From contig CM037593.1 of the NCBI GenBank assembly GCA_021018995.1, positions 13,234,088 to 13,298,087 on the forward strand: a stretch of DNA of 64,000 nucleotides, in the 5' to 3' direction. The stretch is from Chloranthus sessilifolius (lineage: Eukaryota; Streptophyta; Magnoliopsida; Chloranthales; Chloranthaceae). Below are positions 37,449 through 64,000 of the stretch, one piece after another. The notes under the pieces are model-generated. The model searched no databases. It was not told the DNA's origin and was given only the letters and a program-made list of their open reading frames with translations. The number at the start of each line of letters is the position of its first letter. The stretch's first letter is position 1. Both the position numbers and the translations under genes were made by a program.

Positions 37449-37556
37449 TGTAAGACTTTTTGTCACCATCATGACCCAAAAAACAGTATTGCTTCTTTAG
37501 GAAATAGTTTTGTCAAGTAATTAAGTTTGACAAATTGGTTTGTCATTTTTGGACCC

Positions 37557-37626
37557 ACGGTCGTCCGTAGTACACTCACGGACGTCCGTTGTCACGAACG
37601 ACCGTGAGTGATTCACGGATGTCCGT
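37557..37626. repeat. Cluster of the 12 bp palindrome ACGGACGTCCGT in the LTR
   Basis: One perfect copy (37578-37589) and three close variants (37557, 37594, 37615) lie in 70 bases, about 110-180 bases into the LTR. The same palindrome is arrayed at 61856-62176. Confidence 0.9.
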
Positions 37627-37821
37627 GATCCTAAAACATATAAATTTTAGGTAGTTCGGGCAGTTTGGTAACTGATCCGAAAATCTTCATTCTAAAATTT
37701 TTGTTAGTCCAAAATTTTGTCATTGAGATTACTTTTCATCTTTTGATTTCATTCTTTAATCTCTTTGATGTTTATGGGTCTTTATGATTTCATGTTTGAG
37801 AGTGTAAGATTTGTGTGAGAC

Positions 37822-40568: not shown

Positions 40569-42020
40569 ATGTCTAGTTTGGGATATCACGATCTTCCTAG
40601 AGAAGGTGCGTCTACTGCTAGACCCCCTCTGTTTGATGGTTCTAATTATCCTTACTGGAAGGCAAAGATGAGAGCATTTTTAAGTTCACTTGATCCTCAC
40701 ATTTGGTATTCTATTGAGGACGGATGGTTGCCACCAACTACGACCTCTGTTGTCGATAATATACCACATACCACTATCAAACCTAGATCTTTATGGACGA
40801 ATCAGGAATATGATAATCTTGGTTATAATTCCAAGGCCCTTAATGCTTTATTTGGAGCAGTTACTGCTTCTGAGTTTCGTTGAATAAGTACTTGCACCAT
40901 AGCCAAAGATGCATGGAAAATTCTTGAAACCACTTATGAAGGGACTCATCAAGTAAAGATTTCCAAACTTCAAATGCTCACTTCTCAATTTGAAAATCTT
41001 CGTATGGATGATGATGAAAAGTTTTCTGATTTCTATATTCGCTTAAATGATATTGTAAATGGCTCATTTAATTTAGGAGAACCTGTTTCTAATACTAAAA
41101 TTGTGCGAAAAATTCTAAGGTCTCTACCTAAAAGGTTCAGATCAAAAGTCAATACTATTGTTGAATCTAAAGATGTTGACAATCTAAACTTAGATGAACT
41201 CGTTGGGTCATTACAAACTTATGAATATGAAATTCAAGATAATCATGTCACTAAAAGTGTTGCATTTAAATCATCAAAGGTTGAGTCTGATTCTAGCAGT
41301 GATTCTGATAAATCAGATGAACTTGCTTTATTTGTTAAAAAATTTTAAAAATTCTATAAAAATAAGAAACAACCTTTTAAAAAATTTGAAAATTCTGAAA
41401 AATTTAAATTATTTGAAAAGAAACCTAAAAAGGATTTTCCTGACACTACTCAATGTTTTAAGTGTCATGGTTATGGACATTACGCTAATAAATGTCCTAG
41501 TAAGAAAAATGATAAAGGAAAATCCAAAGCTTTGACTGCTTCACATGAGATTGAAATATCAACTGAGTCATCTTCTGATGAATCTGAATCTAGTTCTTAT
41601 GGGTTTAGAGCTTTTGTTGCTTCTATTGTGGAAACTAATAATTCTCAAACTCCTTCTCATACTGAAACTGACTCTATTGATTCAATCTCATCTGCTAATG
41701 AAATTGATGGTGATGTATTAGATATGACAAATGCCTATAGTGAACTTTATCAAGAATCAATACATCTAACTAAAGAAAAAATTAAATTAATCAAAGAAGT
41801 GACTGAGTTAAAAAACATTATAAGAAATCTCCGAGAGAATGTAAATTGTTTAACTCCAAAATTTATAGAACAAGAAAATAAAGTAAATTCTCTTATTGAA
41901 ATAAATGAAAATTTAAAAAGGGAACTTGTTTTTATTTCTGAAAAATATTCAAACATTTACAAGACTAATGAGAAAATGGAAAAATTCCTCAGTTCTGGTC
42001 AAAGAACAATAGACAAATCA
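40569..42020 (+). other. gag region of the outer Copia element (fossil)
   Basis: It begins MSSLGYHDLPREGASTARPP with the typical Copia gag opening (PPLFDGSNYPYWKAKMRAFL), continues through the gag helical part (LRMDDDEKFSDFYIRLNDIV), and has a CCHC zinc knuckle CFKCHGYGHYANKC near 41455, followed by an acidic Ser-rich stretch and a coiled-coil-like segment near 41750-41980. It has a few breaks and is interrupted at its end by the solo LTR at 42021. Confidence 0.85.
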
Positions 42021-44593
42021 TGTAATAGCCTGAAAAATCACGCTTAACTATGACCTCGGGATCCGTGCCCGATCGGTCATAGGTTTGACCAAATGGAAGA
42101 CCAACAGTTAGTATGTGGTGTAATGAACGGATGAGATGTGATAAATAGAATGCCTATGTGGTGTGTGTTGTGAGGGTGTAGTCGCATACACCTACCGCGG
42201 TGTATGTGCTCAACACACAAGTGAGGAAGAGGATAAAAGGGTTTAATAGCCCTAAAATCAAGAGTTTGGTTGTTGAAGGAGAGTAAAGAAGAGAGAGAGA
42301 GAGAGAAGTAAGAGAGGAGTTATTTCAACTGATTGGAGGGGGGATTCAAGCGATAAAAGCCGGATTCAACCCGATTTGGATCTGTTAGAGCCAAAGCTGA
42401 AAACCCTAGCCTTCCAACCACTGGATTGAAATCAACTTGAGATCTATTCAAGGTAAAGTTTTTGTAAATAAAATGCATAGATTATAGGGGTTAAGTTATA
42501 GTTGAATGTGGGTTAAATCATAGGATAATGGCTTAGAAAAATAGAGGAAAAAGTATGGAAGAAGATAGGGAAGAACAACTCGAAAAGGGCTGAATCTGAC
42601 AATTTCGATTAATCGAAATTGGCCAAGAAGTTGAAAAGTCAGAAGACCCCGATTTCGATTAATCGAATTTGATTTCGATTAATCGACTTTGGATTTCGAT
42701 TAATCGATTTGGGGATCGATTAATTGACTGAGAACCTCCAGTGGACCCCAGGGGTTGGAGGAAATGGCTTGAGGAAAAATCGACTAATCGAAATGGGATT
42801 TCGATTAATCGATTTAGATTTTCGATGTCGATTTGGGATCGATTAATCAATTTAACTTCATTGTTGAGCGAGAATCGACTTTGCGAAATAGAAATTTGAT
42901 TAATGAAATTGGATTCGATTAATCGAATGAAAACTTCATTGTTGAACTAAGAATCGACTTTCGAAAAGGAGAATTTGATTAATCGAAATTGGATTCGATT
43001 AATCGAATGGCTTCACTATTGAGAGAATCGACTTTGCGAAAGCAGAGAATTTCGATTAATCGAAATTACTTGATGTCGATATTGACCTTCGATTAATCGA
43101 TTTTGGAATTCGATTAATCGACTGAGATAAATTATGTTGACTTTTGGGTTTGACTTTAAGATTCTTGGAGGGTCTTATACCTTCTTTATTGCATCCTTTG
43201 TGATGTGTTTCACCTGCTATGTGGTACCATAGGTGGTACGTGTGGACTAGTGCACAAAGAGCCACGTGGGACCTTGATGCATTGATCAAATGAAGACTTG
43301 AGGTAGGGAACACCTTGAACATGTACTTTATTTTACAAGAGCATGTATGTAGTGATATAGAATTCAATTCAAATGTTTATTTCTTAAGAAATTGTGAAAA
43401 GTGTGTGTGTGTGACATCCATAAGAGTAATCATATGAGCCATCCCCAGGGGATGAAGAAGTAAAGAGATAAGAGCATCAGGTGTGATGCAAGTAAATGGA
43501 TACATCCCAGGGATGTATCCAAGGATTGAATCATGTTTGATAGGGCCTAACCGATATAAGATAGCACATTTACACGGTGAGTAACTATATGTAAGACACC
43601 GATATTTTTGTTATTTGAGGTTTGATAGGGTACCCCATCGACGTGGCGGGATATCCACGACTGACACGGCAGGATATCCGTGACCGATACGGCGGCGAAA
43701 CCGTAGGCCAGTGCGGAGGCTTATCCGTACATAGTAAGCACACCCCAGGGGTGTTGATTGAGACAAGTGAAACCCCGCCACCAATCCCCAGGGGAAAGGG
43801 GCTTGGGTACTATTAGTATTCCCAGGGAATACGGTTAAAACTGTCTATATAGATGACGATGATGGGTATCTCATCGGGGCTCGATGCTATATTGCTCGGG
43901 GATTACTTAAGTTGAAAGTTTAAGTTTTGCTTTAGGCCTTTTCAGCATTCATTCATGAGTAAATGAAAACATAAGTAATCAACAGTAAAATGAAATGCTT
44001 TTTTTTCTGTTTCATCAATAACTGCATAGATACATCATGCATGGCATATCATGGAATATATGTGAGTTATAATTTATATGTTCAACCGTGTTTGTTCCCT
44101 ATTGAGCTAGGATGTAGCTCACCCTATAGACTATACGTCGCAGGTCCACTACTAGCAGCTGTCGAGGCTTGGGAGGCGATCCCGATCGGACCTGCGGCGT
44201 GAAGAGTTGGAGCCACCTCCTGAGGACTTCTTCTAGAGGACTCCGTTGTGCCACTTTGAGAGATTTTAGAGAGAGTTTTGTACGGCTTGGTATGTCAAGC
44301 CTTAATTCTGTTTAAACCATGTATATGTATAGAGTTGGGATCATTCTTTTGGGGCGAACCATCCGTGATGATTGCTATCATCGATGGTTCGGATCAGTTC
44401 TCCACTCATGTAGAGGCATGTGGTTAGAACTGTCTTTTGGATAGTTAATTAATATAGATTTAAATTCCGCAATTTTGTTTATTATACTTTTTGATGCTTG
44501 ATATACCAGTGTTCCGTGCTTAGCTAAAGGGCACAGTCAAGATGATCGTGCTGATGGCACGGGTTTCGGGGTGCCGAAATCCGGGCTGTCACA
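42021..44593 (+). mobile_element. Solo LTR of a Ty3/Gypsy chromovirus
   Basis: A 2573 bp insert flanked by AATCA (42016-42020 and 44594-44598). It starts TGTAATAGCC and ends GGGCTGTCACA and matches, inverted, the LTRs of the full element at 46025-58809 along its length. No internal domains are present, so a former full element has recombined to one LTR. It carries an array of TCGATTAATCGA palindromes at 42605-43121. Confidence 0.92.
42605..43121. repeat. TCGATTAATCGA palindrome array in the solo LTR
   Basis: A dozen or so perfect or one-off copies of the 12 bp palindrome are spaced irregularly by about 5-40 bases. Confidence 0.9.
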
Positions 44594-46024: not shown

Positions 46025-48629
46025 TGTGACAGCCCGGATTTCGGCACCCCGAAACCCGTGCCATCAGCACGATCATCTTGACCGTGCCCCTTAACTATGC
46101 ACGGAACACTGGTATATCAAGCATAAAAAGAAATAAGAACAACTTGCGGAATTTAAATCTAATTAGAAATACTTTTCAAAAGACAGTTCTACCCTCATGC
46201 CTCTACATGAAGGGAGAACCGATCCGAACCATCGATGATATAAATCATCACAGATAGTTCGCCCCAAAAGAATAATCCAACTCTATACCTACACATGTTT
46301 TCACAAAGTAAAGGCTTGACATACCAAGCCGTACAATCTCTACTCAAAACTCCTCAAAGTAGCACAACGGAGTCCTCTAGAAGAAGTCCTCTGGAGGTGG
46401 CTCCAACTCCTCGGCCGGCAAAGAAGTCCCACTCACGGATCGGCGTCCCAAACCTCGGCACCTGCTAATGGACCTGCGACGATAGTCTATAGGGTGAGCT
46501 ACATCCTAGCTCAATAGGGAACAAACATCACGAACATATAAGTTATAACTCACATATATTCTATGATATGCCATGCATGATGTAACTATGCAGTTGTTGA
46601 TAAAACAGTTAAAAGCATTCGTTTTACTGTTGATTTCTTATGTTTTCATTTACTCATGAAAAATGCTGAAAAGGCCTAAAGCAAAACTTAAACTTTCAAC
46701 TTAAGTAATCCCCGAGCAATATAGCATCGAGCCCCGATGAGCTACCCTTCATCGTCATCTATATAGACAGTTTTAATGTATTCCCTGGGAATACCATATA
46801 TTACCCAAGCCCCTTTCCCCTGGGGATTGGTGGCGGGGTTTCACTTGTCTAAATCAACACCCCTGGGGTGTGCTTACTATGTACGGATAAGCCTCCGCAC
46901 TGGCCTACGGTTTCGCCGCCGTATCGGTCACGGATATCCTGCCGTGTCAGTCGTGGATATCCCGCCACGTCGGTGGGGTAACCTAAGGAACCTCAAATAA
47001 CAAAAATATCGGTGCCTTACATATAGTTATTCACCGTGTAAGTGTGCTATCTTATATCAGTTAGGCCCTATCAAACATGATTCAATCTGTGGATACATCC
47101 CTGGGATGTATCCATTAACTTGCATCACACCTGATGCTCTTATCTCTTTACTTCTTCATCCCCTGGGGATGGCTCATTCGTTTTCTCTTATGAATGTCAC
47201 ACACACACTTTTCACAATTCTTTGAGCAGTAAAAATAATTGAATTGAAATTTATATCACTACATACATGCTCTTGTAAAATAAAGTACATGTTCAAGGTG
47301 TTCCCTACCTCAAGTCTTCACTTGTTCAATGCATCAAGGTCCCACGTGGCTCCTCGTGCACTAGCTCACACGTACCACCTATGGTACCACACAACAGGTA
47401 AAACACATCACAAGGGATGCAATAAAGAAGGTATAAGATCCTCCAAGAATCTTAAAGTCAAACCTAAAGTCAACAAAATTTATCCCAGTCGATTAATCGA
47501 AATCCAGAATCGATTAATCGAACTTGGTTCGATTAATCGATTTCCAAAATCGATTAATCGAAGGTCAATATCGATTAATCGAAGTAATTTCGATTAATCG
47601 AAATTCTCCTTTTCGCAAAGTAAACTCACCGCTCGAATAAATGAAGCTCGATTAATCGAATCCAGTTTCGATTAATCGAAATCTTCTTTTCGCAAAGAAC
47701 ACTTACTATTCGAACAGTTCGAGTTTCTATTCGATTAATCGAATTCAGTTTCGATTAATCGAATCTCTCCTTTTCGCAAAGTACACTTACTGTTCGAACA
47801 GTTGACTTTCACAAGTCGATTAATCGATCCCAAATCGATTAATCGAAAACTAAAATCGATTAATCGAAATCCCATTTCGATTAGTCGATTTTTCCTTAAA
47901 TCATTTCCTCCAACCCTTGGGGTCCATGAGTTCAATCGATTAATCGATTTTCAAATCGATTAATCGAAATCAAATTGATTAATCGAAATCCAATTCGATT
48001 AATCGAAATCGTGTCTTCGACCTTTCAACTTCCGCCAATTTCGACATTAAACCCAATTTCGATTAATCGAAATTGTCGATTCAAATTTTTAGTTCTTCCC
48101 AATCTTTTCCCATACTTTTTCCTCTATTTTTCTAAACCATTATCCTATGATTTAACCCACATTTAACCACAACTTAACCCCTATGATCTATGCATCTTAT
48201 TTACAAGAATTTACCTTGGATAGATCTCAAGTTGATTTCTATCGATAGTTGGAAGGCTAGGGTTTCTAGCTTTGGCTCTAACGGAACCCTTGCGTCGAAT
48301 CCGGCCTCCTTAATGCTTGACTCCTTCTTCCAAACAGTTGCAATAACTCTCTCTCTCTCTTCTTTACTCTCCTTCAACAACCCAAAATACCCATCTAGGG
48401 TTATTAAACCCTTTTATCCCTCTCTTAGTTTGTGTGTTGAGCACATGCACCTCAATAGGTATATGCGACTTCATATTTACAACACACACCACGAAATCAC
48501 TCAAGCTATCACATCTCGTCCGTTCACCACATCCTATGCTAACTCTTGATCTCCCGATTGGTCAAACTTGTGACCAATCGGGCACGGATCCCGAGGTCAT
48601 AGTTTTGCGTGATTTTTCGGGCTATTACA
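46025..48629 (-). repeat. 3' LTR of the Gypsy element (left copy)
   Basis: 2605 bp, from TGTGACAGCCC (inverted end) to ...GGGCTATTACA (inverted start). It contains the palindrome array 47489-48070. Confidence 0.92.
47489..48070. repeat. TCGATTAATCGA array in the left Gypsy LTR
   Basis: About 17 perfect copies plus one-off variants lie in 582 bases. Spacing is irregular, so this is a cluster of short palindromes and not a simple tandem repeat. Confidence 0.92.
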
Positions 48630-48640
48630 TCCTCCCCACC
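48630..48640 (-). other. Polypurine tract of the Gypsy element
   Basis: GGTGGGGAGGA on the minus strand lies directly before the 3' LTR, the expected place for the plus-strand primer. Confidence 0.8.
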
Positions 48641-48999
48641 TTGGGAATTTTCGTCGTCGAAAATCACCCAACGGTGTGGTGGTGTGCACGCTCTCCCCCC
48701 CCCCCCCGCACACTCGGAGGTGAGGTGGTTCATTTTACCCATACGTATTTAAGTCTCCACACATTCACACAATACAAACATGGAAGTAAAATGTAACAAA
48801 ATTTAACAATTTATATAAAAAGCTTTCTTTGTATTAAGGATTGAAGATTTTGTTACAATGCCAATAAGTTGGCGTACAGTATAAACTACAGGTATAAATC
48901 AAAATACAAAATACATAGACGACTCAAATGCCCCGTCAGTGATCGGGTGCCGCAGTGGATCGTGGGTCTGCAGGAGCTGCTCTCAGCTGCAGGCTGGGT

Positions 49000-50414
49000 C
49001 GTCATGAGTAGATGCGGATGTGGAAGGAGCCGTCGTCAGTGGGATAGAAGACGGGTCCTCGATGGAAGGCGGCGTCCGGCCGTCCACTCTTCTTCAGCGG
49101 CTAACATATCCATGTAGGTGTGGGGTAGATGAATCGGAGGGTGTGAAACATGAGGAAATCAATCCTCCTGTTCATCCTCTCGTTATTTCCATTCTGCCAA
49201 CACGTCCTCTATGGTAGGACTGGATGGGAGGCGCACGGCAGTAGGATGAGGTGGGAGTCATGGGCGCGGAGTGTGCAGTGTGGTGTCGGCTGGTGGTGTG
49301 GAGGGAACCTCTCCAGGATGGCTCACGTGGGTGTGCCCCACCCTCAAGTGGGTCCTCTGAGGTGGTGGGGTGGTGACGGTGTTGCACTGCCGCTCTTTGG
49401 GGCCGGGAGGCGGGGACCGAGCTGGTAGGGTTCGCTTCAATAGGTTGTAGCTACGGGTCCATGAAGACTTGGTGAACGTCTTCACGCGATCCGTAGCCCT
49501 CACCTCGTGGGGTGAAATAGTGTAGGAGGGCTCGTCAGAGTAGCACTCCAACATGCTCGAGATGAGCCGAGCATACGCATCTTCTCCTTGGGCCGCATGT
49601 TGCCCTTCATCGCTTTAGTCTTGATGTACCGCATCCCTCAAGGATGACCATGGTAGCATCAAACCATCGGCCATGTAAGGTCACAGTAAAGTGCATGTTG
49701 CACTTTATCCACGCGCCCGTGTCGTGGCGCGACGGGTAAAGGTTGCATTTTATTATGGAGTCGAGCATCCACATGTAGGGTGGAAGATCGACCCTCTTGA
49801 TGGACGTGCAATTCTTCTTCCCGTTGGTCATGCGAGTCATGACCTCTTCAAAACGGGGTTCCTTTTCAAAGGGTGGAAATAGGGTAGTTTCGGGAGTAAA
49901 GTCGAGGTAGCATTCAAGCACCTCATGTATGTGCCGACGAGTGATCGTATAGAGACGACCCTCGATTTTGGTTATAATGCAATCGTCACTAGGGCCATTG
50001 GTTAGCCCTTGGTAGAACAACCTCACCAATCTAGGGTAATAGGAACCCCGGATTGGTTTGAGAAGGTTGCCGAGTCCGGCACTGGTTAGGTAGTTCTGAG
50101 CCCATTGGGTCTCGCCCGGTAAATCGGGATTTGTGAATAGGGTAGGGTCAATGGTGTATTCGACCTCAAAGGTCTTGGCAGCCCACCACTCGTTTGGTTG
50201 CTCCACGTTGGTGGGTGGTGGTGGCATGGGGTGGATTTCGGGAAGACTCGCGCGTAGATGCGCTCGTCGAACCGGAGGTGGTCTCCGATTCCGACGGTGT
50301 CGGAGTCCTCACCGGCGATGGGGTAGGTGGTGGTGGTGCGGCGTTCTTACGCCTAACCGGTAGCTTGGATGTTGTCTTTTTCGAAGATAAACGGGTTTTG
50401 GGCGGCATGTTCAC
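49000..50414 (-). other. Extra ORF of the Gypsy element, 'putative plant transposon protein' family (fossil)
   Basis: It starts MNMPPKTRLSSKKTTSK with a Lys/Pro/Ser-rich tail, then a globular part containing EWWAAKTFEVEYTIDPTLF, YYPRLVRLFYQGL, GRLYTITRRHIHEVLECYL, and a later helix around MWMLDSIIKCNLYPSRHDTG. This spacing (VR.FY..L, then an I.E.L helix, then L.PR) resembles the widespread plant retrotransposon ORF called 'putative plant transposon protein' in domain databases, and the ORF at 62274-63458. There is no signal peptide or membrane segment, so it does not look like an envelope. It has a few breaks in its second half; the 3' limit is approximate. Confidence 0.7.
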
Positions 50415-50640
50415 TAAACTAGGGTTTATCTAGCTTGAATTGAAGAAAAAACGGAAATCTAGGGTTTACCTTAGGTTTTGAGTAATGCACGCGATTTCGG
50501 ACGCGAATCGGCGGAAAACCCAAACCCTAGAGCACTCGGTTGGTTGGAGAAGAAGGAGAAGATGAAACGCCCAAAAATCCCAAGCCAAATGATTTCGAAT
50601 GGGGAATGAAATCCCCAAATTTATTTATATAGCCCGCGGC

Positions 50641-51107
50641 TCGATTAATCGAAATTCCATTTCGATTAATCGAAATTTAAAACTAGGTTAAGCCGCGTAA
50701 AATCGATTAATCGATTTCGCAAATCGATTAATCGAAAATAAAATTCGATTAATCGAAAATATTTCGATTAATCGAAATCGTGTTTGTTTAAAAATTTAAA
50801 ATTTTTGAGCTCACTGGCGCGTGCCAGTCGATTAATCGAAATTCATTTCGATTAATCGAATCTCAAATCGATTAATCGAACTTAGTTTCGATTAATCGAA
50901 ATCGTGCAAAAACTTCAAAAATTTTCCAAAATTTCTTAAGTATTCGATTAATCGAAATCCCATTTCGATTAATCGAAATTTCTTTCTATGCATTTTCTAA
51001 CTCAACTTTTCATTTTCAGTCACTGGCACATGCCAGTCGACTAATCGAACAAGATCGATTAATCGAAATTCCAAATCGATTAATCGATTTGAAATTCGAT
51101 TAATCGA
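50641..51107. repeat. TCGATTAATCGA array between pol and the extra ORF
   Basis: About 15 perfect copies and one variant lie in 467 bases. The array ends 227 bases before the start of the extra ORF (50414, minus). The same palindrome is arrayed in both LTRs. Confidence 0.92.
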
Positions 51108-51239
51108 TTTTGCCCAATTCTCGCAATTTCAATCTCTTGTTTCTTTTACTATTATTGACAATTCATGACAGATTGGATCAAAATTTCCATTGAAATACAA
51201 GTATAGTGGAGATTTCACAACACGTTTGTGGTTTACATT

Positions 51240-54200
51240 GCATTCTCACGTCGTTGGAAACAAGGCTGGGTATTGTTCTTTCATATCGGCCTCTCGTTCC
51301 CAAGTAGCCTCTTCTTTAGGATGATTGTTCCATCGAACAAGCACTAAGGGAATTACTTTAGTCGAAGATTTGCTTTCCGATCCAAGATCTCCATGGTTCT
51401 ACTATCATGCTCATGTCCTCACACATCTCTATAGGTTGCTTCCCTAACACATGAGACGGATCATTCACGTACTTTCTGAGCATCGATATGTGGAAGACAT
51501 TATGTACTCGATCGAATAGCGGTGGTAAACTAATGCGATATGCAACTTCACCTATTCGTCCCAAAATTTCAAATGGTCCAACATAACGTGGACTTAACTT
51601 CCCCCTCTTGCCAAATCGCATTACACCTTTCATAGGTGACACCTTCACAAACACATGCTCGCCCACTTTGTAGTCAACACTAGTCCGCTTCACATCGGCG
51701 TAACTTTTCTGTCTACTCTGTGCTGTCTTCAACCTTTCTCTGATAATTCGGACAACGGTGGCGTTGTCTTCAAGCAGTTTTGGTCCTAATACAAATTTCT
51801 CACCTGTTTCTTCCCAATTGAGGGGTGACTTGCATCGTCGTCCATATAGAGCTTCATATGGTGCCATGCCAATGCTCGTTTGAAAACTGTTATTATATCT
51901 GAACTCGAGCATCGGTAGATACTCATCCCGGATCCTTGCATATCAAGCATGCACGCCCGAGCATGTCTTCTATCACTTGATTCACTCGCCTGTCGCCCAT
52001 CACGAGGATGGAAAGTCAACTAAAGTCTAGTCGCTCCCATTCCTTCTTGAAATTTCTTCCAAAACTTGGACGATATAGTGGATCACGATAAACTATCGCT
52101 TGGAATACCATGTAATCTTACAATCTCTTTCATATATAGGTCTGCCAATCTTCCTGCCGTATACGTAGTATTGTATGGCAAAAAGTGCGCTGATTTGGTC
52201 AATCGGTCTACGACGACCCAAATAGCATTATGTCTCTTGGCAGTACGAGGTAATCCAACAATGAAATCCATTGAGATCGATTCCCACTTCCATTCTGGTA
52301 TTGGTAAAGGTTGCAATAGTCCCGCAGGATGTCTATGATCAACCTTCACTTGTTGACAAGTCAAACATCGTGACACATACTCGGCCACGTCTTGTTTCAG
52401 TCCTCTCCACCAGTAGTTCCTTTTCAAATCTTGGTACATTTTGGTGCCACCAGGGTGGATCGCATAATTTGACTTATGAGCTTCATCAAGAATTGTTCGT
52501 CTTAGATCGGCATTATCCGGGATGCATAGACGGCCTTTAAACAATAACGAACCGTCTTCTTTTACTGAGAAGTCCGAACTGATGCCTTCACTCACGTCTT
52601 GACGAATCTTTGTTAATGCTGGATCTTTCATCTGTAGCTCGTGGATATGTTCAAATATCACTGGCTTTACTGAGATGTTAGCCAAAAAGGATCCAGTGTC
52701 CTTTGACTCAATGTTCGCATCATAGCATGCCAGGTCTTCCAATAGTTTCCATCGGTGCATACCCAAAATCAATGAAGCTAACTGAGCTGAACCCTTTCGA
52801 CTCAATGCATCGGCTACTACATTCGCCTTGCCAGGATGATATTGTATGGAGCAATCATAATCCTTGAGGAATTCCATCCATCTGCGCTGTCTCATATTGA
52901 GCTCTTTCTGTGTAAACAGATATCGGAGGCTCTTATGATCGGTGAAAATTTCAAAAGTCTCACCATACAAGTAATGTCTCCAAATCTTCAGCGCAAAAAT
53001 GACTGCTGCCAGTTCTAAGTTATGAGTCGGGTAATTCTTCTCGTGTTCTTTCAACTGTCTTGATCCGTAAGCTATCACCTTCTTGTGTTGGTTGAGCACA
53101 CAACCAAGGCCATTGTATGACGCGATCATTTGTACGCGTATCCTCCATGCTGAAGGAATCGCTAACACTGGAGCCAGTGAGTCTCATTTGTGTTCTTGAA
53201 AACTCTTCTCGCATGCCTCACTCCACTCAAACCTTGAATCTTTTCGTGTTAGCTTTGTGAGAGGTCCCGATATCTTTGAAAACCCCTCAACGAAACGTCG
53301 ATAATAGCCTGCTAAGCCCAGAAAACTTCGGACATCTGTCACTGTCTTTGGTTGCTCCCATTTAACTACTGCTTCTATCTTTGCTGGATCTACCGTGACG
53401 CCGTGCTTCGAGACGACATGTCCCAAAAAGCTAACTTCTTCCAACCAAAACTCACACTTACTGAGTTTGGCGTATAATTGGTGTTCACGTAGCGTTTGTA
53501 GAGCAATCCTCAAGTGTTCTTCGTGTTCTGTCTTGGATTTGGAGTATATTAGTATATCATCAACGAACACTACCACACAGGAGTCCAAGTGTGGTTTAAA
53601 CACTCGGTTCATCAGATCCATAAATGACGCTGGGGCATTCGTTAATCCAAACGGCATCACAAGGAATTCGTAGTGTCCATACCGTGTCCGGAAAGCTGTC
53701 TTCTGTATGTCCTCTGCCTTGACTCGCAACTGATGATAACCAGATCTTAGGTCGATCTTGGAAAAATACCTTGCTCCTTGCAGTTGGTCGAATAGATCGT
53801 CAATTCTAGGCAAAGGGTAGCGGTTCTTCACAGTAAGTTTGTTCAATTGTCGATAGTCAATGCATAGTCGCATTGACCCATCTTTCTTCTTGACAAATAA
53901 GACCGGTGCTCCCCATGGAGATACACTGGTCTAACAAACCCCTTGTCCATCGGCTCTTGTAGTTGTTCCTTCAACTCCTTTAACTCGTGGAGCCATTCTA
54001 TAAGGTGCTTTGAAATAGGCTCTGCCTCGTGTTAAGTCAATGGCTAATTCTACCTCTCTTCTCGAGGTAATCCGTGCAATTCTTCCGAAACACGCCTAAG
54101 TCTCGCATAACCGCTATCTCAAAATGACGCTTCTTTTCTTCCTTGTCCTCCTTTAAGAACGCTAAATATCCATCAACCCTTTCGATCTTTTCGCCTCATC

Positions 54201-54600
54201 ACGAGATCAAGGGTACGATGACGACCTCACCCTTGAAACCGAAATGATCTTCTTGTGTTGGGTCCGAAAATGACTACCTTGTTCTTGCAATCAATGGTCG
54301 CACAATGTCGCCAACCACCCATGCCAAGGATTACATCAAACCCTTGCATGTCTAATAAAGACCAACTTTGCTTCCAATTCATGCACTTCTAAGTCTTGAA
54401 CTGCTACGACGATGGATTTGCAAGCTAACTCGTGTCTACTAACTCTCCAAATGGAATAGACACAGATAGGACGAAATCCAACGCTCGAACGATCTTCATC
54501 TTCTTAGCAAAACGTGGAGTGACGAATGAGTGGGTAGACCCGGTCTATCAACACCGAAAGCCATGTCTAAATACACTTCCTTTTCCTAGATAGTTAAAGT
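51240..54600 (-). other. pol region of the Gypsy element (fossil)
   Basis: On the minus strand: a degraded protease part (about 54600-54000); reverse transcriptase (53870 to about 53190, [20 protein letters not shown] and the [11 protein letters not shown] catalytic box); RNase H (about 53110-52820, [14 protein letters not shown]); integrase with its His-Cys zinc motif and core (about 52480-52090, [20 protein letters not shown]); the integrase C-terminus (GKLSPRYVGPFEILGRIG, about 51580); and a chromodomain-like end (VLVRWNNHPKEEATWE, about 51300). RT before integrase is the Gypsy order, and the chromodomain makes it a chromovirus. Several breaks. Confidence 0.88.
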
Positions 54601-54716
54601 ACCTATAATATATATACACATACATACAGGAATTTACACATCAAAATGCACTCTCAGTTTATATTAAAAGAATCTACACTATTCCTAAAGCATGCACCCT
54701 TTCCATCTAAAATTCT

Positions 54717-56019
54717 TTATGAAACGAAATTAAATTTTTTTTTGGAATAAAAATAAAATTTCTCACCTTGGGTGACCGCGTGTACATTCCCTGCTTCCTG
54801 AGCAGTGTCTGCATAGGCTCTCCCCCTAACAATCGGCTTCCTTGCTTGAATGGGTCGTGGTGCTGTAACTGAAGCCGTCTTGCCCTTGTCTGTCTCGGGG
54901 CAATCCTTGATCATGTGGCCCACCTTGCCACATCGGAAACAACCTCTAGTTCCGATTCTGCAGTCTATAGTCCTATGCGGCTTGCCACATCTGGCACACG
55001 TCTCTCGAGGTGCGGAAGATACGGTACGAGAACCCTGTGTGATAGTGGCACCAGTAGACATGGCAGGGCTCTCATAGCGAATAGGTCTCCCCGACGCAAG
55101 TAATGGAAACCTCTGTTGGTGTTGTTGTTGCTGTTGTTGCGCCGGTCTTCCAAAACCTCCCTGAAACTGCGGTCTCTGACTCTGACCCACGAACCTCGGC
55201 TTTTTATTCACCGGTTCGAAGTTCCCCATCCTTCCGTGGTCAAGTCCTCTGTTGCTCTGCCTATATCTGTTCGTGTTCTCCTCTTCTACAACCAATGCTT
55301 TGCTCATGACCTCTTCATAGGTCCTCAGTTGAAATGGAGCTACGCCTCCCCTAACCTCAGGCTTCAAACCTTGCTGAAACCTCTTGGACTTCATCACTTC
55401 AGAAGCGACGTAATCCGGAGCAAAACGGGCAAGTCGTAGAAACTCTACCCCGTATTCTCTCACGGTCATTCTCCCTTGTACTAACTGCAAAAATTGTATC
55501 TCTAATTGGTTCCTCACCACTTCCGGGAAATATTGTTTGTTGAACTCCTCAACAAACTCCTCCCAAGTCCATGGCAACTCTGGGGTCTCCTGAGCCCGAG
55601 TCCGTATCACGGACTTCCACCAAGGCCCAGCCTCCCCATCCAACATGTAAGCTGCCCATCTTACACTCTCATCTTCCGTAAAAGTTAGCACGCTAAAACT
55701 TTCTCCATTTCCATCACCAATTCCTCGTGCCATTGTGTACTCAGAAAATGAAGGAGGTCTCATCCTTCTAAACTCAGAAAAGATGAGGGCACAGCAACGC
55801 AGTCCTGGTGTGGTGTAGGTGGTCACGTTTCTGACGATGAGTCGCAAAGGATGCGGCTTGTTGTGCCATGGCAGCTGCCATAGTCTCCATAGTGTGCATC
55901 ATCCTTTGTCGCTCTTCTCTGTCCTCTTGTCTTTCTCTCAATCTTTCTTGCTCTCTTTGATCTTGATCCTGATGATCTCGATCCTCTTCTTCATGTTGTC
56001 CGCTACGCTCGGGCCTCAT
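54717..56019 (-). other. gag region of the Gypsy element (fossil)
   Basis: An Asp/Glu/Arg-rich coiled-coil-like start (MRPERSGQHEEEDRDHQDQD, about 56019) is followed by a Ty3-type capsid part (AAYMLDGEAGPWWKSVIRTR; TWEEFVEEFNKQYFP) and two Cys motifs, CARCGKPHRTIDC and CFRCGKVGHMIKDC (about 55000-54900). A few breaks. Confidence 0.88.
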
Positions 56020-56210
56020 TACCTCCTAAAGGCACTCTATTGGTAGGAGAAATGTAACCATCTCCACTACGTAAACTCCTTTGATGGCCTCCCCTTGGTC
56101 GGCCTCTCCCTCTAGCTGACATTTGCGGCTGCATTTGAAACTAAGGTTTCGTTAGCAGAAGCCCCTATGATCTGACGAAAGAATCCTTGTCAGAATTGCT
56201 AAAAGAAAAT

Positions 56211-56223
56211 AGCTTTGATACCA
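56211..56223 (-). other. Primer binding site of the Gypsy element
   Basis: TGGTATCAAAGCT on the minus strand lies two bases after the 5' LTR. It matches the initiator Met-tRNA type TGGTATCAGAGC with one change. Confidence 0.85.
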
Positions 56224-56225
56224 AC

Positions 56226-58809
56226 TGTGACAGCCCGGATTTCGGCACCCCGAAACCCGTGCCATCAGCACGATCATCTTGACCGTGCCCCTTAACTATG
56301 CACGGAACACTGGTATATCAAGCATAAAAAGAAATAAGAACAACTTGCGGAATTTAAATCTAATTAGAAATACTTTTCAAAAGACAGTTCTACCCTCATG
56401 CCTCTACATGAAGGGAGAACCGATCCGAACCATCGATGATATAAATCATCACAGATGGTATAGTTGCCCCAAAAGAATAATCCAACTCTATACTACATGT
56501 TTTCAAAAGTAAAGGCTTGACATACCAAGCCGCATAATCTCTACTCAAAACTCCTCAAAGTAGCACAACGGAGTCCTCTAGAAGAAGTCCTCCGAGGTGG
56601 CTCCAACTCCTACAAAGTCCGCTCAAGGGATCGGCGTCCCTGAAACCTCGGAATGCTAATGGACTCGACGATAGTCTATAGGGTGAGCTACATCCTAGCT
56701 CAATAGGGAACAAACACCTGAACATATAAGTTATAACTCACATATATTCTATGATATGCCATGCATGATGTAACTATGCGTTGTTGATAAAATGCTTAAA
56801 AGCAGCATTCGTTTCTTGTTGATTTCTTATGTTTTCATTTACTCATGAAAAATCTGAAAAGGCCTAAAGCAAAACTTAAACTTTCAACTTAAGTAATCCC
56901 GAGCAATATAGCATCGAGCCCGATGAGCTACCCTTCATCGTCATCTATATAGCAGTTTTAATGTATTCCACAGGAATACCATATATTACCAAGCCCTTTC
57001 CCCGGGATTGGTGGCGGGTTTCACTTGTTCTAAATCAACACCCCGGGTGTGCTTACTATGTCGGATAAGCCTCCCGCGACCGCCTACGGTTTCGCCAACA
57101 GTATCGGTCACGGATATCCCTGTGTCGGGCCGTGGATATCCCGCCACGTCGGTGCGGTAACCTAAGGAACCTCAAATAACTAAAATATCGGTGCCTTACA
57201 TATAGTTATTCACCGTGTAAGTGTGCTATCTTATATCAGTTAGGCCCTATCAAACATGATTCAATCTGTGGATACATCCTCGGATGTATCCATTAACTTG
57301 CATCACACCGATGCTCTTATCTCTTTACTTCTTCATCCCACAGGGATGGCTCATTCGTTTCTCTTATGAATGTCACACACACACACTTTTCACAATTCTT
57401 TGAGCGGAAAATAATTGAATTGAAATTTATATCACTACATACATGCTCTTGTAAAATAAAGTACATGTTCAAGGTGTTCCCTACCTCAAGTCTTCACTTG
57501 TTCAATGCATCAAGGTCCCACGTGGCTCCTCGTGCACTAGCTCACACGTACCACCTATGGTACCACACAACAGGTAAAACACATCACAAGGGATGCAATA
57601 AAGAAGGGATAAGATCCTCCAAGAATCTTAAACTCAAACCTAAAGTCAACAAAATTTATCCCAAATTAATCGAATCGAATCGATTAATCGAACTTGGTTC
57701 GATTAATCGATTTCCAAAATCGATTAATCGAAGGTCAATATCGACATCGGTAATTTCGATTAATCGAATTCTCCTTTCGCAAAGTAAACTCACTGTTCGA
57801 ACAGTCGAGTTTCCGTTCGATTAATCGAATCCAGTTTCGATTAATCGAAATCTTCTTTTCGCAAAGAACACTTACTATTCGAACAGTTCGAGTTTCTATT
57901 CGATTAATCGAATTCAGTTTCGATTAATCGAATCTCTCCTTTTCGCAAAGTACACTTACTGTTCGAACAGTTGACTTTCACAAGTCGATTAATCGATCCC
58001 AAATCGATTAATCGAAAACTAAAATCGATTAATCGAAATCCCATTTCGATTAGTCGATTTTTCCTTAAATCATTTCCTCCAACCCTTGGGGTCCACTGGA
58101 GGTTCCCAGTCGATTAATCGATTTTCAAATCGATTAATCGAAATCCAAATTCGATTAATCGAAATCCAATTCGATTAATCGAAATCGTGTCTTCTGACCT
58201 TTCAACTTCCTGGCCAATTTCGATTAATCGAAACCCAATTTCGATTAATCGAAATTGTCGGTCACCTTTGTTTGTTCTTCCCAATCTTTTCCATACTTTT
58301 CCTCTATTTTTCTAAACCATTATCCTATGATTTAACCCACATTTAACCACAACTTAACCCCTATGATCTATGCATCTTATTTACAAGAATTTACCTTGGA
58401 TAGATCTCAAGTTGATTTCTATCGATAGTTGGAAGGCTAGGGTTTCTAGCTTTGGCTCTAACGGAACCCTTGCGTCGAATCCGGCCTCCTTAATGCTTGA
58501 CTCCTTCTTCCAAACAGTTGCAATAACTCTCTCTCTCTCTTCTTTACTCTCCTTCAACAACCCAAAATACCCATCTAGGGTTATTAAACCCTTTTATCCC
58601 TCTCTTAGTTTGTGTGTTGAGCACATGCACCTCAATAGGTATATGCGACTTCATATTTACAACACACACCACGAAATCACTCAAGCTATCACATCTCGTC
58701 CGTTCACCACATCCTATGCTAACTCTTGATCTCCCGATTGGTCAAACTTGTGACCAATCGGGCACGGATCCCGAGGTCATAGTTTTGCGTGATTTTTCGG
58801 GCTATTACA
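56226..58809 (-). repeat. 5' LTR of the Gypsy element (right copy)
   Basis: 2584 bp, same family and ends as 46025-48629. The palindrome array is at 57680-58252. It differs from the left copy mainly by small gaps that cluster near CAG/CTG words. Confidence 0.92.
57680..58252. repeat. TCGATTAATCGA array in the right Gypsy LTR
   Basis: It corresponds to 47489-48070 of the left LTR, with a similar number of palindromes; a few are lost or gained between the two. Confidence 0.9.
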
Positions 58810-58814
58810 AAACA

Positions 58815-60913
58815 CTACTAAGACTCCATATGAAATATGGAATGCTAAAAAACCTCAAGTTAGTTATTTTCGAGTTTTTGGTAGTGCTTGTCACATTTTA
58901 AGAGATCGTGAATATCTTAGAAAATTTGATGCTAAAACTGACAATGGTATTTTTCTTGGTTACTCATTGAACAGCAGAGCCTATAGGGTTTTTAATTTAA
59001 GAACTCTTACTGTCATTGAATCAGTTAATGTGGTTGTAGAAGATCAAAAATCAGATTCTTCTTCTGTTTTAAATAGAGATATTGACGATGAAGTTCTTAT
59101 TGTTCCTATTAATCATGAAAAAATTAGACTTGTTAACATTAATTTATCTTCTGACAATGAAAATTCTACACACACTACATCTAATATCACTGAAGATATC
59201 AGTGTAGATATTTCACACAACAATATCTCTGAAAATGAGTCTCGACATAGGCCTTCCTATGCTCGTGATATGAGAAGTCACCCACCTTCTGCTATCATTG
59301 GTGACTTGTCCACTCAACTTCTTACTAGACGAAAATTTAAAAATCTGTCAAACCTTCTTTCTCATGTATGTTACACATCAAATCTTGAACCAAAAAATAT
59401 TAAAGAAGCTCTTCTTGATGAGCATTGGGTTACTGCGATGCAAGAAGAGCTCACTCAATTCAAAAGGAATGATGTGTGAGAACTTGTTTCTAGACCTTCA
59501 AACATTAGAATCATCTGTACAAAATGGATTTTAAAAAATAAAACTAATGAAGAAGGTAAAATCATTAGAAACAAAGCAAGATTGGTGGCTCAAGGGTACA
59601 CTCAGGTTGAAGGTATTGATTTTCATGAAACATTTGCTCCTGTAGCTAGGCTTGAGTCCATTCGCATAATCTTAGCAATGGCATGTCATTTAAAATTTAA
59701 ATTATACCAAATGGATGTAAAGAGTGCATTTTTAAATGGTTTTTTGACTGAGGAAGTGTATGTGGAACAACCCAAAGGATTTGAAGATCCACATCATTCT
59801 CATGATGTATTTAAACTTAAAAAGGCATTATATGGCTTGAAACAAGCACCTCGTGCTTGGCATGATAGACTCATAAAATACCTAATCACTAATGGTTTTA
59901 AACGTGATAGTGTAGATAAAACATTATTTTTGAAAGAAGAATCATCTAATTTAACTGTTGCTCAAATTTATGTTGATGACATTATCTTTGGATCCACATT
60001 AGACTTAAATGCTCATAAATTTCAAACTCTAATGAGCAATGAATTTGAAATGAGTTTATTCTGTGAGTTAAATTGCTTCTTAGGTCTACAAATAAAACAA
60101 TGTTCCACTGGCATTTTCATTTCCCAATCTAAATATGCAAAAGAACTTGTTAAGAAATTTGGCTTAGAATCAAGTAAACCTGCCCGCACCCCTATGAGTA
60201 CGTCAGTGAAATTGACAAAAGATGTAAATGGTAAAATTGTAGGGGATACACTTTATAGAAGCATGATAGGTAGTCTTCTCTATCTTACTGCTAGTAGACC
60301 AAATATTGCTTACAGTGTGGGTATGTGCGCTAGATTTCAATCAGCCCCTAAGGAGTCTCATCTAACTATTCTTAAACGTATCATTCGTTATGTTAACGGT
60401 ACACTAGAGTTAGGTCTCTGGTATCCTTTCGATACCACATCTCATATCATTGGTTTTTCCGATTCTTATTGGGCCGGTAACTCTGATGATCGTAAAAGCA
60501 CGAGTGGTGGTTGTTTTTATATCGGAAATTGTCTTGTTTCTTGGCTCAGCAAAAAACAAGCTTTGGTTTCTTTATCCACTGCTGAAGCGGAATATATTTC
60601 TGCTGGTAATGGGTGCACTCAACTCTTATGGATGAAGCAAATGTTGTCTGACTATGGGATTTCTCAAGGTGTAATGACCTTGTTTTGTGATAACACCAGT
60701 GCTATTTGTATTTCTGAAAATCCTGTACAACATTCTAGGACTAAACACATTGATATTCGACACCACTTCATACGTGATTTGGTGGAAGAAAAAATTATTC
60801 TCCTGAAGCACATACACACACAATTACAATTAGCAGATATTTTTATAAAATCGTTGGATTTTGATCGATTTGAATTTCTTCGAAAATCCATTGGTTTATG
60901 CTTCATCGATTAA
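58815..60913 (+). other. Integrase end, reverse transcriptase and RNase H of the outer Copia element (fossil)
   Basis: After the Gypsy insertion the integrase C-terminus resumes (FRVFGSACHILRDREYLR near 58870). A divergent linker follows (about 59000-59480). The reverse transcriptase (from about 59582, [20 protein letters not shown]; catalytic [10 protein letters not shown] near 59970) and RNase H ([20 protein letters not shown] near 60580; [17 protein letters not shown] near 60740) form a long open block ending at 60913. Very few breaks. Confidence 0.9.
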
Positions 60914-60933
60914 TCACTATTTCATCACTTGTA

Positions 60934-60970
<37 letters not shown>

Positions 60971-61855
60971 CTTCGCAAATATTTTTATATAATTATGTAT
61001 GATACGTTCTAAAGTTTCATACGTGAACATGTGATAAAATTTTCTAAGAATGCATTTGTATTATTTTGAGTTACACTTAATTGGCTTTTATTCTGTATCA
61101 TCAAGGTATTTTTTTATTATCGTTAGTATATAAAGGAATTTTTTATTAATAGTCATTGCAACAAGCTTATGTTCTGGGTAAATGTTGAATCTTGATTTTT
61201 TTTTATTCAAATAATGTTCTGTATTCTTCTTATTTTTTTCCGTTTGCCTTTTCAACTCGAGTTAATAAGCCGTGGAGTATTCTATACTTAATGCCCTAAG
61301 TCAACTGAATTAGGAGTCATTGGTCTAACCCTCGCTAAATGAGTTGAATAGAAAGCAAGTAAATTTCAGATTGAATATTCAAATTTTCTTTCACTCTACC
61401 TTGTAGCCTAATTGACTTGAGCAAGTAAAATCGTTGGGATTTCTTCAAATCTATTGCCCTAAACTAACTAGTTGGGAGTCAATGTTCTAAAGCTCATTAA
61501 AAAGGTCTTTTAGAAAGCTTAAAAAGGTGTGAGTATCTTTCTTTTATGGAGAACATTTAAAAAAAAAAAAAAAAAGGGAGTCTCAATATTATTTGGACTA
61601 TATGTTGTTGTTGCAATTAACTTTGATTTTTAAAATCTTCCTTTGTTAACTATTTTTTTCGTAATGTAATACATATGATGTGTATAGAAAATAGTGAATT
61701 TTAAGCTACTTTTATTGCTTCGTATGCATTTTAGGATGTTTTAACTCTTTCACATGAAATTTTATTACATATTATAAAATTTAAAAAAAAAAAATAAAAA
61801 AAAAAATTATTATTATTATATATATATATATTTTTCGTAAGTGTCACGGACGTCC
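60914..61855. other. AT-rich untranslated part after Copia pol
   Basis: No coding sequence. It has a (TA)n tract (60932-60956), T-runs and A-runs (61558-61576, 61783-61805). A partly repeated pair of 'ccctaa.t.aact.....ggagtca' segments lies at 61290-61320 and 61450-61480. Confidence 0.7.
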
Positions 61856-62176
61856 GTGAAATCTAGACGGACGTCCGCATTTCCAACCCCAAACTAACAA
61901 TTTTCACCCGGCCGTCCGTGAATCACTACGGACGTCCGGATTTCAATAGGTTCTCTGACACTTTACCACGGACGTCCGTGAATTACTCCGGACGTCCGGA
62001 GTATAAACAGTTTCCAATATTCGAACGGTCTTTTTGCAGTTATTACACCTGACAACTGTCATTCATTCACGGACGTCCGTCAGTTCAATTCCCAAAGCTT
62101 TTTCAAAGCGATTAAATTTTGTTCTCACGGATCTCAAGGTCTTACGGAGGTCCGTGATCTTCTTACGGACGTCCGT
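61856..62176. repeat. ACGGACGTCCGT palindrome array before the extra ORF
   Basis: Nine copies lie in 321 bases, most with the perfect core GGACGTCC and four exact over 12 bases (for example 61856-61867 and 62165-62176). The array ends 98 bases before the start of the ORF at 62274. The same palindrome is clustered in the LTR at 37557-37626. Confidence 0.92.
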
Positions 62177-62273
62177 TCAAATTTTTTTATAATCGGCTTC
62201 TTGAACCGTCTTCTTCATTTTTCACTCAAATTTTTTTTCACTCTCTGCTTTCCATTTCAACGAAAGATAAAGA

Positions 62274-63458
62274 ATGTCTCTTAATAGGAAAAACTCTAAG
62301 AAATCTAAAGGTTCTTTCTCTTCTTCATCGCATGAACTTCAACGTTTTCCTTCTAAAAGCCATGAAGAACGTTTTCAACGTCTATTTCTTACTCGAAATC
62401 TCATAGTCGAACGGGTTGTTCTTGACAAATTTCTCAGAGATCATGATATGTATGAGATGTTTGCTTCTCGGGGTTGGCTTTCACTTCTTTCTCTAACGGG
62501 CTCTGCTTACACCGATGTGGTTCGGTATTTTTATGCTAATCTCCTCAACGCCAAGATAGTAGAGAGTAGGATGGAGTGTTATGCAGTGACTTACATTTTT
62601 GGTAAGCAAATCACTTTTTCTCCTTTACTTATCTCTGAAATCTTGGGCATTCCTTTAAATGAAAATGGGTATAGCTATCCTGTAGATGAAAGTCAAATTC
62701 AATCACTGTTTAGTCCTTCCACCGTCTATGACTATGTGTGCAATGTACCGTCTCAACTCACTGGAATTGCATTGCACTATTCTTCCTTGAAAATGAAATT
62801 TCAATGGCTTCGCCACGTTCTTTTTGCCACTCTTACACCAAGAGCGGGAAATAAAGATCAAGTGCGTTGGGACATTATTTATCTAATGTTCCTGTTAGAC
62901 AAAAATCGTCCTTTGTGTGTATCTTCAATTATTTTTGAATTAATCGTTCGACGCATGAGGGATGATACCTCTAAAATGTCTCTTCCCTTTCCTATAATTA
63001 TTAGCAAGATTGTTGAGTCTCAAATGACTCTTCCTCCTTTTCTGGCTACTTCTAGAGCCATGGCACCATTAGGTAAGTTAAAAAAAATTGGGAAAAGGGT
63101 TACACTAGATTTGGACGATGTTGAATTATTAGATGAAACGTCTGATGAGGATGAGGCAGAAGATTTTCCTGCTCAAGAAGGTTTTCCTCAAGATGCCGCT
63201 GCTCCTCCACCAGTTCCTCCGTATCAGGGTCAAGAGGGTCATTATTATGATCAACATTTTCATAGGATGCATACTGAGATGCAACATATGCATTCTGAAA
63301 TTCAAAACTTATCTAATCGGATTGAAACTGGTTTCAATATCTATGGGGAGCAAATTTCTTCGTTACAAATGACAATGATTGACGGTTTTGAAGCGATGAT
63401 GAATCGTTTTAACAATGTCTTCCCGCCTCCAGGAGCACACTTTCCGCCTCCTGAATGA
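62274..63458 (+). CDS. Extra ORF of the outer Copia element, 394 residues, intact; 'putative plant transposon protein' family
   Basis: Start MSLNRKNSKKSKGSFSSSSH, a basic, Ser-rich tail of about 40 residues. Residues 45-250 form a globular, mostly helical domain with RLFLTRNLIVERVVLDKFL, YTDVVRYFYANLL, FSPLLISEILGIPL and WLRHVLFATLTPRAGNKDQV, the pattern of the plant retrotransposon 'putative plant transposon protein' domain. An acidic stretch (about 285-305), a Pro/Gln-rich linker and a C-terminal coiled coil (about 335-385, MHTEMQHMHSEIQNLSNRIE) follow. There is no signal peptide or membrane helix, so a fusogenic envelope is unlikely despite the 'env-like' position in SIRE elements. The basic tail and coiled coil would fit a dimeric nuclear or nucleic-acid-binding protein. 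Function unknown; family call moderately sure. Confidence 0.8.
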   Translation: MSLNRKNSKKSKGSFSSSSHELQRFPSKSHEERFQRLFLTRNLIVERVVLDKFLRDHDMYEMFASRGWLSLLSLTGSAYTDVVRYFYANLLNAKIVESRMECYAVTYIFGKQITFSPLLISEILGIPLNENGYSYPVDESQIQSLFSPSTVYDYVCNVPSQLTGIALHYSSLKMKFQWLRHVLFATLTPRAGNKDQVRWDIIYLMFLLDKNRPLCVSSIIFELIVRRMRDDTSKMSLPFPIIISKIVESQMTLPPFLATSRAMAPLGKLKKIGKRVTLDLDDVELLDETSDEDEAEDFPAQEGFPQDAAAPPPVPPYQGQEGHYYDQHFHRMHTEMQHMHSEIQNLSNRIETGFNIYGEQISSLQMTMIDGFEAMMNRFNNVFPPPGAHFPPPE

Positions 63459-63947: not shown

Positions 63948-64000
63948 TGTAAGACTTTTTGTCACCATCATGACCCAAAAAACAGTATTGCTTCTTTAGG
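63948..64000 (+). repeat. Start of the 3' LTR of the outer Copia element
   Basis: 53 bases, identical to the first 53 bases of the 5' LTR at 37449. The rest lies beyond the window. Confidence 0.93.

Follow-up and report, generated by a model that had tools for sequence, protein, structure and literature searches.

Do two unrelated LTR retrotransposons, one nested in the other, carry a common module in which an array of short palindromes precedes an extra open reading frame (ORF) and recurs in the LTR, and what would such arrays be for? This question was raised by the window, the whole stretch of 64,000 nucleotides analysed here. The first-pass annotation had proposed that the Copia and the Gypsy element share such a module. 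Palindrome clusters were indeed present in both elements and both ORFs matched the same Pfam family, the Gypsy ORF with a score under its cut-off, but the Copia half of the module had already been published (PMC2829016).

Palindrome arrays of the two elements in the window

The palindrome of the Gypsy element, TCGATTAATCGA, occurred in 59 exact copies in the window (expected 0.01), which fell into four clusters, located in a solo LTR (42605-43121), in the two LTRs of the element (47489-48070 and 57680-58252) and upstream of its extra ORF (50641-51107), so that the same palindrome was present at all four places where it had been noticed. The palindrome of the Copia element, ACGGACGTCCGT, had five exact copies (37578, 61846, 61968, 62069, and 62165; expected 0.01). 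When the window was scanned without bias for palindromic 10-mers occurring three times or more, six clusters were found, against none in each of the 20 shuffles used as the control. The six clusters were the four of TCGATTAATCGA, the internal array of the Copia element, and an array of CGCTCGAGCG at 39254-39469, which was absent from the first-pass annotation. The sites in the Copia LTR were missing from this list because just one of them is exact.

The Copia element lies on the plus strand. Its 5' LTR starts at 37449 and was followed to 37700, with its full end hidden by a further insertion, and the same start is found at 63948 in the 3' LTR (63948-64000), which runs past the window end. The LTR contains four palindromes at 37557-37626, where they had been placed earlier (one exact, the rest with up to three mismatches; gaps of 21, 16, and 21 bp), and a TATA box at 37639-37644, 12 bp past the last of them. 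The 3' part of pol (58793-60913) spans the SH3-like to RT domains. The internal array contains nine sites with up to three mismatches, four of them exact; its annotated end at 62176 was correct, while its start moved from 61856 to 61846. A TATAAT sequence (62188-62193, plus strand) comes after the last internal palindrome, and the extra ORF (62274-63458), a Transposase_32 protein of 394 aa, was open as annotated. At L019, the window's own Copia copy extending further, two exact palindromes were also located downstream of the ORF. GGGGGAG polypurine tracts were read by eye near 63674, 63806, and 63939, the last of them leading into AT/TG where the LTR starts. Several such tracts before the 3' LTR, with the last one joined to AT/TG, mark Sireviruses, as do palindromic boxes with a CGG-CCG core located both in the LTR and ahead of the env-like gene, which the element also carries. 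The Copia element is a Sirevirus.

The Gypsy element (46025-58809, minus strand) was inserted in the Copia pol and has a 5-bp target repeat, AAACA. Its 5' LTR (56226-58809) and 3' LTR (46025-48629) contain 18 and 19 palindromes, and the solo LTR (42020-44593, plus strand) showed 84.5% identity to the 3' LTR. The gag-pol region (51240-55898) ends with a chromodomain-like stretch that was read by eye in one frame. The internal array, confirmed at its annotated position, contains 16 sites, 15 of them exact, and a TATA box, TATATAAATA (50622-50631), is located between this array and the extra ORF (49607-50408), while the LTR arrays were followed by only a weak GATAAAT. The position of this ORF beside the array stood, but its start moved from 50414 to an ATG at 50408, and the window copy was interrupted by stops and frame changes. 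With its Gypsy-type domains and the motif TCGATTAATCGA, the element has neither the Copia host nor the CGG-CCG core of the Sirevirus boxes.

The extra ORF and its motifs across the genome

The Copia ORF matched Transposase_32 (Pfam PF20167) with 65.1 bits (E 9.7e-18), over the cut-off of 45 bits, while the Gypsy ORF of the window reached 35.9 bits (E 9.2e-9), under it. Among 15 copies of the Copia ORF, with the duplicate of the window's copy left out, the mean dN/dS was 0.18 (71 of the 105 pairs), which, at the level of sequence, shows that this ORF is under purifying selection. None of the 2142 candidates from a large protein database reached E ≤0.001 with the Copia ORF, and neither extra ORF had a match in NCBIfam or a known DNA-binding domain in Pfam or NCBIfam. 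The search for relatives of solved structure gave no significant match (five at E 1.1-1.3). No DNA-binding fold was found, and the AlphaFold2 prediction from the single window ORF sequence failed at a pLDDT of 43. In a hydropathy scan for a transmembrane helix, the window ORF peaked at 1.26 over 19 residues, and the peaks of five other ORFs were 1.00-1.97.

The survey covered one plant genome of 2.17 Gb, with 80 ORF loci, two of which (L019 and L038) belong to the window itself. Upstream of 75 of the 80 loci, these two included, the motif of the locus's own clade was the best of six tested. The motifs were ACGGACGTCCGT in the Sirevirus clade A, TCGATTAATCGA in the chromovirus-like clade B, GTCGATTAATCGAC in clade C, CCTCGCGAGG in clade D, and ACGGTC(A/G)ACCGT in clade F, which consists of one locus. 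Clades C and D we take to be Athila-like, from hallmarks of the Athila integrase end seen in their translated ends. The motif differed between ORF clades, except that B and C had a common core. These two grouped as sister clades in the ORF tree with just 60% support, too low a value to separate a motif that follows the ORF from one that follows pol. The palindromes were kept in other copies of both elements, with at least one exact upstream site at 28/29 ORF loci of the Copia family (L019 excluded) and at least seven upstream sites at 28/29 of the Gypsy family (L038 excluded). As far as could be checked in this one genome, the results did not contradict the expectations that ORF-bearing families would generally have an array and that the motif would differ with the ORF clade, although a match of motif and ORF is expected from family descent alone and is therefore no independent proof of pairing.

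Three of the loci lacking their own motif could be accounted for. At L008, upstream homology stops at the ORF; at L050, about 1.2 kb including the array is missing; and L073 was counted as a miss because its upstream region reads as the LTR of another element, inserted in the ORF, and it was rejected as a case of motif swap. Exact palindrome pairs were abundant genome-wide, with 130,580 from one form alone.

Bousios et al. (2010) described the Sirevirus repeated motif (RM), in the passages cited here, as palindromic boxes that precede TATA in the LTR, form clusters 5' of the env-like gene, and are absent from classic Copia elements (PMC2829016). These boxes have a CGG-CCG core as in ACGGACGTCCGT, which is nearly identical to GTCGGACGTCCGAC, the published box of Usier; the same passages make no comparison with Gypsy elements, mention no two-turn spacing, and do not propose the env-like protein as the box binder (PMC2829016). 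Sireviruses were the only lineage for which we found an array before the extra ORF described in the literature. What is new here is the occurrence of this layout, built from different palindromes, in a chromovirus-like element and in two Athila-like families. The ORF clades in which arrays recur span at least two superfamilies.

Spacing, conservation and alternative explanations

In clades A-C, the palindromes were mostly 18-23 bp apart from start to start, which corresponds to two DNA turns. The gaps were 20-23 bp in 117/253 cases in clade A (none at 24-38), 18-22 bp in 367/507 in clade B, and 19-23 bp in 47/76 in clade C (one at 24-38). Among the matches listed genome-wide, clade B pairs at 77 plus-strand places were spaced at 19-23 bp (61), 24-39 bp (4), or 40-42 bp (12). 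The 16-bp gap in the clade A LTR departed from the two-turn spacing, and no such phasing was found in clade D or at L084. A TATA box was often located about 10 bp past the last palindrome. In clade B it lay within 100 bp at 29/29 loci, at 9 bp in 23 of them (background 0.11), and in the LTRs of clade A it was found 12-13 bp past the palindrome in 11/11 placeable cases (of 30 loci). Of the internal arrays of clade A, only 13/29 had a TATA box (background 0.27). With the pattern used, it was found in 0/6 cases in clade C and 2/5 in clade D.

Over 29 loci each, conservation was 97.3% in the palindromes vs 89.3% in the spacers in clade B, and 93.3% vs 75.8% in clade A; alignment gaps were equally or more frequent in the palindromes, and the sequence units could have been homogenised by duplication instead of selection. 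A functionless expansion of tandem repeats, copied into the LTR and the internal region, might produce such arrays: Tandem Repeats Finder detected repeats of 19-21 bp within the array of the Gypsy element, and paralogous arrays look alike. However, it reported no such repeat in the Copia array, distances stayed constant while spacer sequences differed in clades A-C (clearest in C), the palindrome letters were conserved above the spacers, and the layout was common to several lineages, which makes this explanation very improbable. Slightly less remote is a role of the palindromes as RNA or single-strand hairpins or sources of small RNAs, instead of protein sites. LTR palindromes of maize Sireviruses are described as small-RNA hotspots in passages of two reports (PMC10760457, PMC5311732), and symmetry exceeded expectation at the centre of C and the outer pairs of A and B. 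Nevertheless, in A and B the majority of core half-site pairs varied as if independent, so a pure hairpin role was rated low, and it is hard to see what a hairpin would gain from the two-turn spacing.

A protein-bound promoter element fits the two-turn spacing, the palindromes less changed than the spacers, and the nearby TATA. The protein might be a host transcription factor, different in each family, for which the palindromes serve as LTR enhancers and an internal promoter, with the ORF otherwise employed (movement, capsid, or envelope-like). The spacing and the TATA neighbourhood suit any dimeric factor, and in the cited passages the boxes were matched mainly to stress-related plant sites and persist in the LTRs of env-less Sireviruses (PMC2829016). 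The latter observation counts against the ORF product as the binder and fits a host factor equally. Even so, we consider host factors rather unlikely, since one protein family with changing specificity explains more easily both the near-identical two-turn spacing across different motifs and the position of the internal arrays beside one kind of ORF.

A putative regulator circuit and its known counterparts

We estimate a probability of about 50% that the arrays are regulator sites at the LTR and internal promoters, with the ORF product as the most likely regulator. In this view, a dimeric regulator with sequence specificity would bind the clustered sites of each array, which lie immediately 5' of a putative TATA promoter. 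The copy in the LTR would drive the genomic RNA, while the array between pol and the extra ORF would form an internal promoter for that ORF. With palindromes held two DNA turns apart, bound dimers could share one DNA face and cooperate. From the arrangement of sites we infer that the element would activate its LTR and its own regulator at the same time, and the product may also resist silencing, as VANC does. The layout looks like a self-control switch.

A broader reading is held more tentatively. In plant Sireviruses, chromoviruses, and Athila elements, the env-like ORF or additional 3' ORF may encode, instead of an envelope, an ancient DNA-binding regulator of the element itself, which reads family-specific two-turn palindromes both in the LTR and in the internal promoter of its own gene; protein and palindrome would co-diversify, giving a two-promoter circuit of self-activation or anti-silencing. 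Among the additional ORFs described in plant LTR retrotransposons (PMC11728184, PMC7264820), the 3' ORF of a sunflower Athila element contains Transposase_32 and is predicted to have a nuclear signal; neither text uses the word "palindrome". The common motif, spacing, and TATA layout makes the role of these ORFs a simple binding question, with cognate pairs ready-made.

Element-encoded proteins with site arrays are known from other systems. TnpA of En/Spm is one of them, a different protein of a DNA transposon in which short sites are arrayed close to the promoter. According to the passages cited, VANC of VANDAL is also encoded by its element and paired with arrays of short family-specific motifs in non-coding parts; unlike here, VANDALs are DNA transposons, the motifs are non-palindromic and in one orientation, and demethylation is demonstrated (PMC5735166). 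Foamy-virus Tas, as described in the part of the source cited, is an element-encoded regulator acting on the LTR and an internal promoter with a shared-site layout of the kind seen here, but its binding is demonstrated in animal retroviruses, whereas in the plant elements binding is inferred, and homology was neither found nor is claimed (PMC4929722). The plant elements have the same palindromes at both the LTR and the internal position. If the protein binds them, plant retrotransposons would own a regulator circuit resembling that of complex retroviruses.

Elements, arrays, and extra ORFs in the window

The Copia element of the window, which is of the Sirevirus type, started at 37449 and extended past the right edge, and its coding region was interrupted in two places, once by a solo LTR (about 42020-44593) and once by a complete Gypsy element (46025-58809) with the 5-bp repeat AAACA on its flanks. 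The Gypsy element contained gag, RT, RNase H, and integrase domains and, as read by eye, a chromodomain-like end. The first-pass annotation had described in both elements an array of palindromes (ACGGACGTCCGT in Copia, TCGATTAATCGA in Gypsy) upstream of an extra ORF, and the palindrome positions were borne out with minor corrections; the shuffle comparison also agreed with it, since 20 shuffles produced no cluster of a repeated palindromic 10-mer, of whatever sequence, against six in the window itself. An additional array at 39254-39469 contained three copies of CGCTCGAGCG, two of them 22 bp apart, and was located in a separate inserted stretch (roughly 37.8-40.3 kb) within the Copia 5' LTR, which also carried a 194-bp direct duplication (39071 and 39286).

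The extra ORF of the Copia element matched Transposase_32 (PF20167) with 65.1 bits (cut-off 45), and the broken copy in the Gypsy element scored 35.9 bits, under the cut-off. The window Copia ORF had an acidic stretch at 278-297 and, in a poor structure model, a predicted long helix at 320-382, and its peak 19-residue hydropathy, taken as hydropathy only, was 1.26 (up to 1.97 in a relative). Mean dN/dS of the Copia ORF was 0.18 among 15 open copies (71 of 105 pairs, those with dS > 0.08).

Palindromes and ORF clades across the genome

The genome searched comprised 2.17 Gb in 32 contigs and yielded 13,856 first-look candidates for PF20167 and 41,298 for the Gypsy ORF, with 150 scored in each search. 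At least one exact ACGGACGTCCGT was present upstream in 29 of 30 Copia ORF loci, and 7 to 19 exact TCGATTAATCGA were present in 29 of 30 Gypsy ORF loci; these counts included the window's own copies (L019 and L038), without which the arrays were kept in 28/29 loci of either type, as the module first proposed would predict. A further 20 loci were chosen for diversity. Six motif cores were scored per locus, success meaning that the own-clade motif was best with at least two sites. The proposed correspondence of motif and ORF clade held in 75 of 80 loci of this one genome, where clades B and C have one core in common: A (Sirevirus) 36/38, B (chromovirus-like) 29/30, C 6/6, D 3/5, and the single locus of F. 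Clades C and D end in an integrase that we take, by its hallmarks, to be Athila-like. Among the misses, upstream homology stopped at the ORF in L008, the array was absent from L050, a foreign LTR was inserted in L073, and L075 and L080 were decayed, each with six sites at up to two mismatches against 0.39 and 0.30 expected. The LTR-like insertion of L073, which lay within the 2 kb preceding the ORF match, contained 13 exact sites of a different palindrome, TGATCGATCA, mostly 19-23 bp apart, the same spacing as in the arrays.

Spacing, promoter context, and conservation

Spacing was measured start to start between adjacent sites. Gaps in clade A (37 loci) were 20-23 bp in 117 of 253 cases, 39-42 bp in 54, and 24-38 bp in none; 367 of 507 gaps in clade B (30 loci) were 18-22 bp, and in clade C (6 loci) 47 of 76 were 19-23 bp and one was 24-38 bp, although gaps of different loci are not independent because the loci have common descent. 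Single arrays of the window were compared, for gaps of 18-23 bp, with 20,000 uniform placings each. Such gaps made up 11/15 in the Gypsy internal array and 13/18 in the Gypsy 3' LTR array, neither ever equalled, 6/13 in the solo LTR (P 0.006), and 4/8 in the Copia internal array (P 0.014). Phasing at 10.5 bp was detected in the Gypsy internal array (p 3e-4) and LTR (p 6e-4), the Copia internal array (p 0.012), and the clade C locus L069 (p 0.005), with p 0.03 for the LTR in L073 and 0.06 for L082; it was not detected in the Copia LTR (0.71), D (0.81), or L084 (0.74). Exact TCGATTAATCGA pairs separated by 2-32 bp numbered 130,580 in the whole genome (control 0). Among the 77 plus-strand pairs listed, all from positions up to 2.9 Mb on contig C1 and with minus-strand doubles removed, 61 were at 19-23 bp, 4 at 24-39 bp, and 12 at 40-42 bp. 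In alignments of 29 loci per clade, B sites mostly formed groups of four and A sites mostly pairs.

A TATA box followed the last palindrome in 29/29 B loci, 23 of them at 9 bp (background 0.11 per 100 bp), and in 13/29 A loci (background 0.27); by the pattern used, it was found in 0/6 C and 2/5 D loci, and two C copies had TATTTAAA in its place. A 3' LTR start was locatable in 11 of 30 A loci, and in all 11 of these TATA lay 12-13 bp past the last LTR palindrome. The Gypsy LTRs of the window showed only a weak GATAAAT after the palindromes.

Column agreement in the 29-locus alignments was 97.3% for palindromes, 89.3% for in-array spacers, and 90.3% outside the array in B, and 93.3%, 75.8%, and 86.2% in A. 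CpG letters were conserved like the other palindrome letters, and alignment gaps were not rarer in palindromes than in spacers (B 0.108 vs 0.105, A 0.096 vs 0.059).

Candidate regulators and comparison with known elements

The two palindrome halves varied as if independent at the majority of core positions in A and B (A pair 1, 203/236 symmetric vs 203.9 expected), and excess symmetry was seen at the outer pairs of A (pair 0, 169 vs 151.8) and B (pair 0, 145 vs 122.5) and at the centre of C (70 vs 49.3). On balance, the conservation and half-site data speak for a protein that reads the sequence rather than for hairpin pairing. Judged from the layout, that protein may well be encoded by the element itself, a putative regulator acting at the LTR and an internal promoter; we consider this the best reading, with a probability of about one half. 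The chief rival, in which a host factor would take this role instead, appears rather unlikely.

For the broader rule across lineages no printed precedent was found: among the papers listed by a literature search without most subscription journals, and judged by those listings, none dealt with such arrays ahead of the extra ORF in chromoviruses or Athila elements. The Athila Transposase_32 ORF itself has been published in sunflower (PMC11728184, available portions). The Copia half of the layout is already known. According to the available portions of Bousios et al. 2010 (PMC2829016), palindromic boxes occur in the LTRs of all 13 Sireviruses studied and are absent from classic Copia; the nine env-bearing elements have them in the linker too, with 77 of 79 linker copies upstream of env, and the four env-less elements have no linker copies. 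Regulation and an internal promoter were considered there, and the authors were unable to identify a binding factor. A later paper, seen through excerpts (PMC10760457, PMC5311732), tied Sirevirus-type LTR palindromes to small RNAs. At the single locus L084, ACGGTC(A/G)ACCGT sites 1.5 kb upstream of a divergent ORF nearly match the Vitis box CGGTCGACCG in the same portions of PMC2829016. Motif arrays are likewise published for VANC, as excerpted from PMC5735166.
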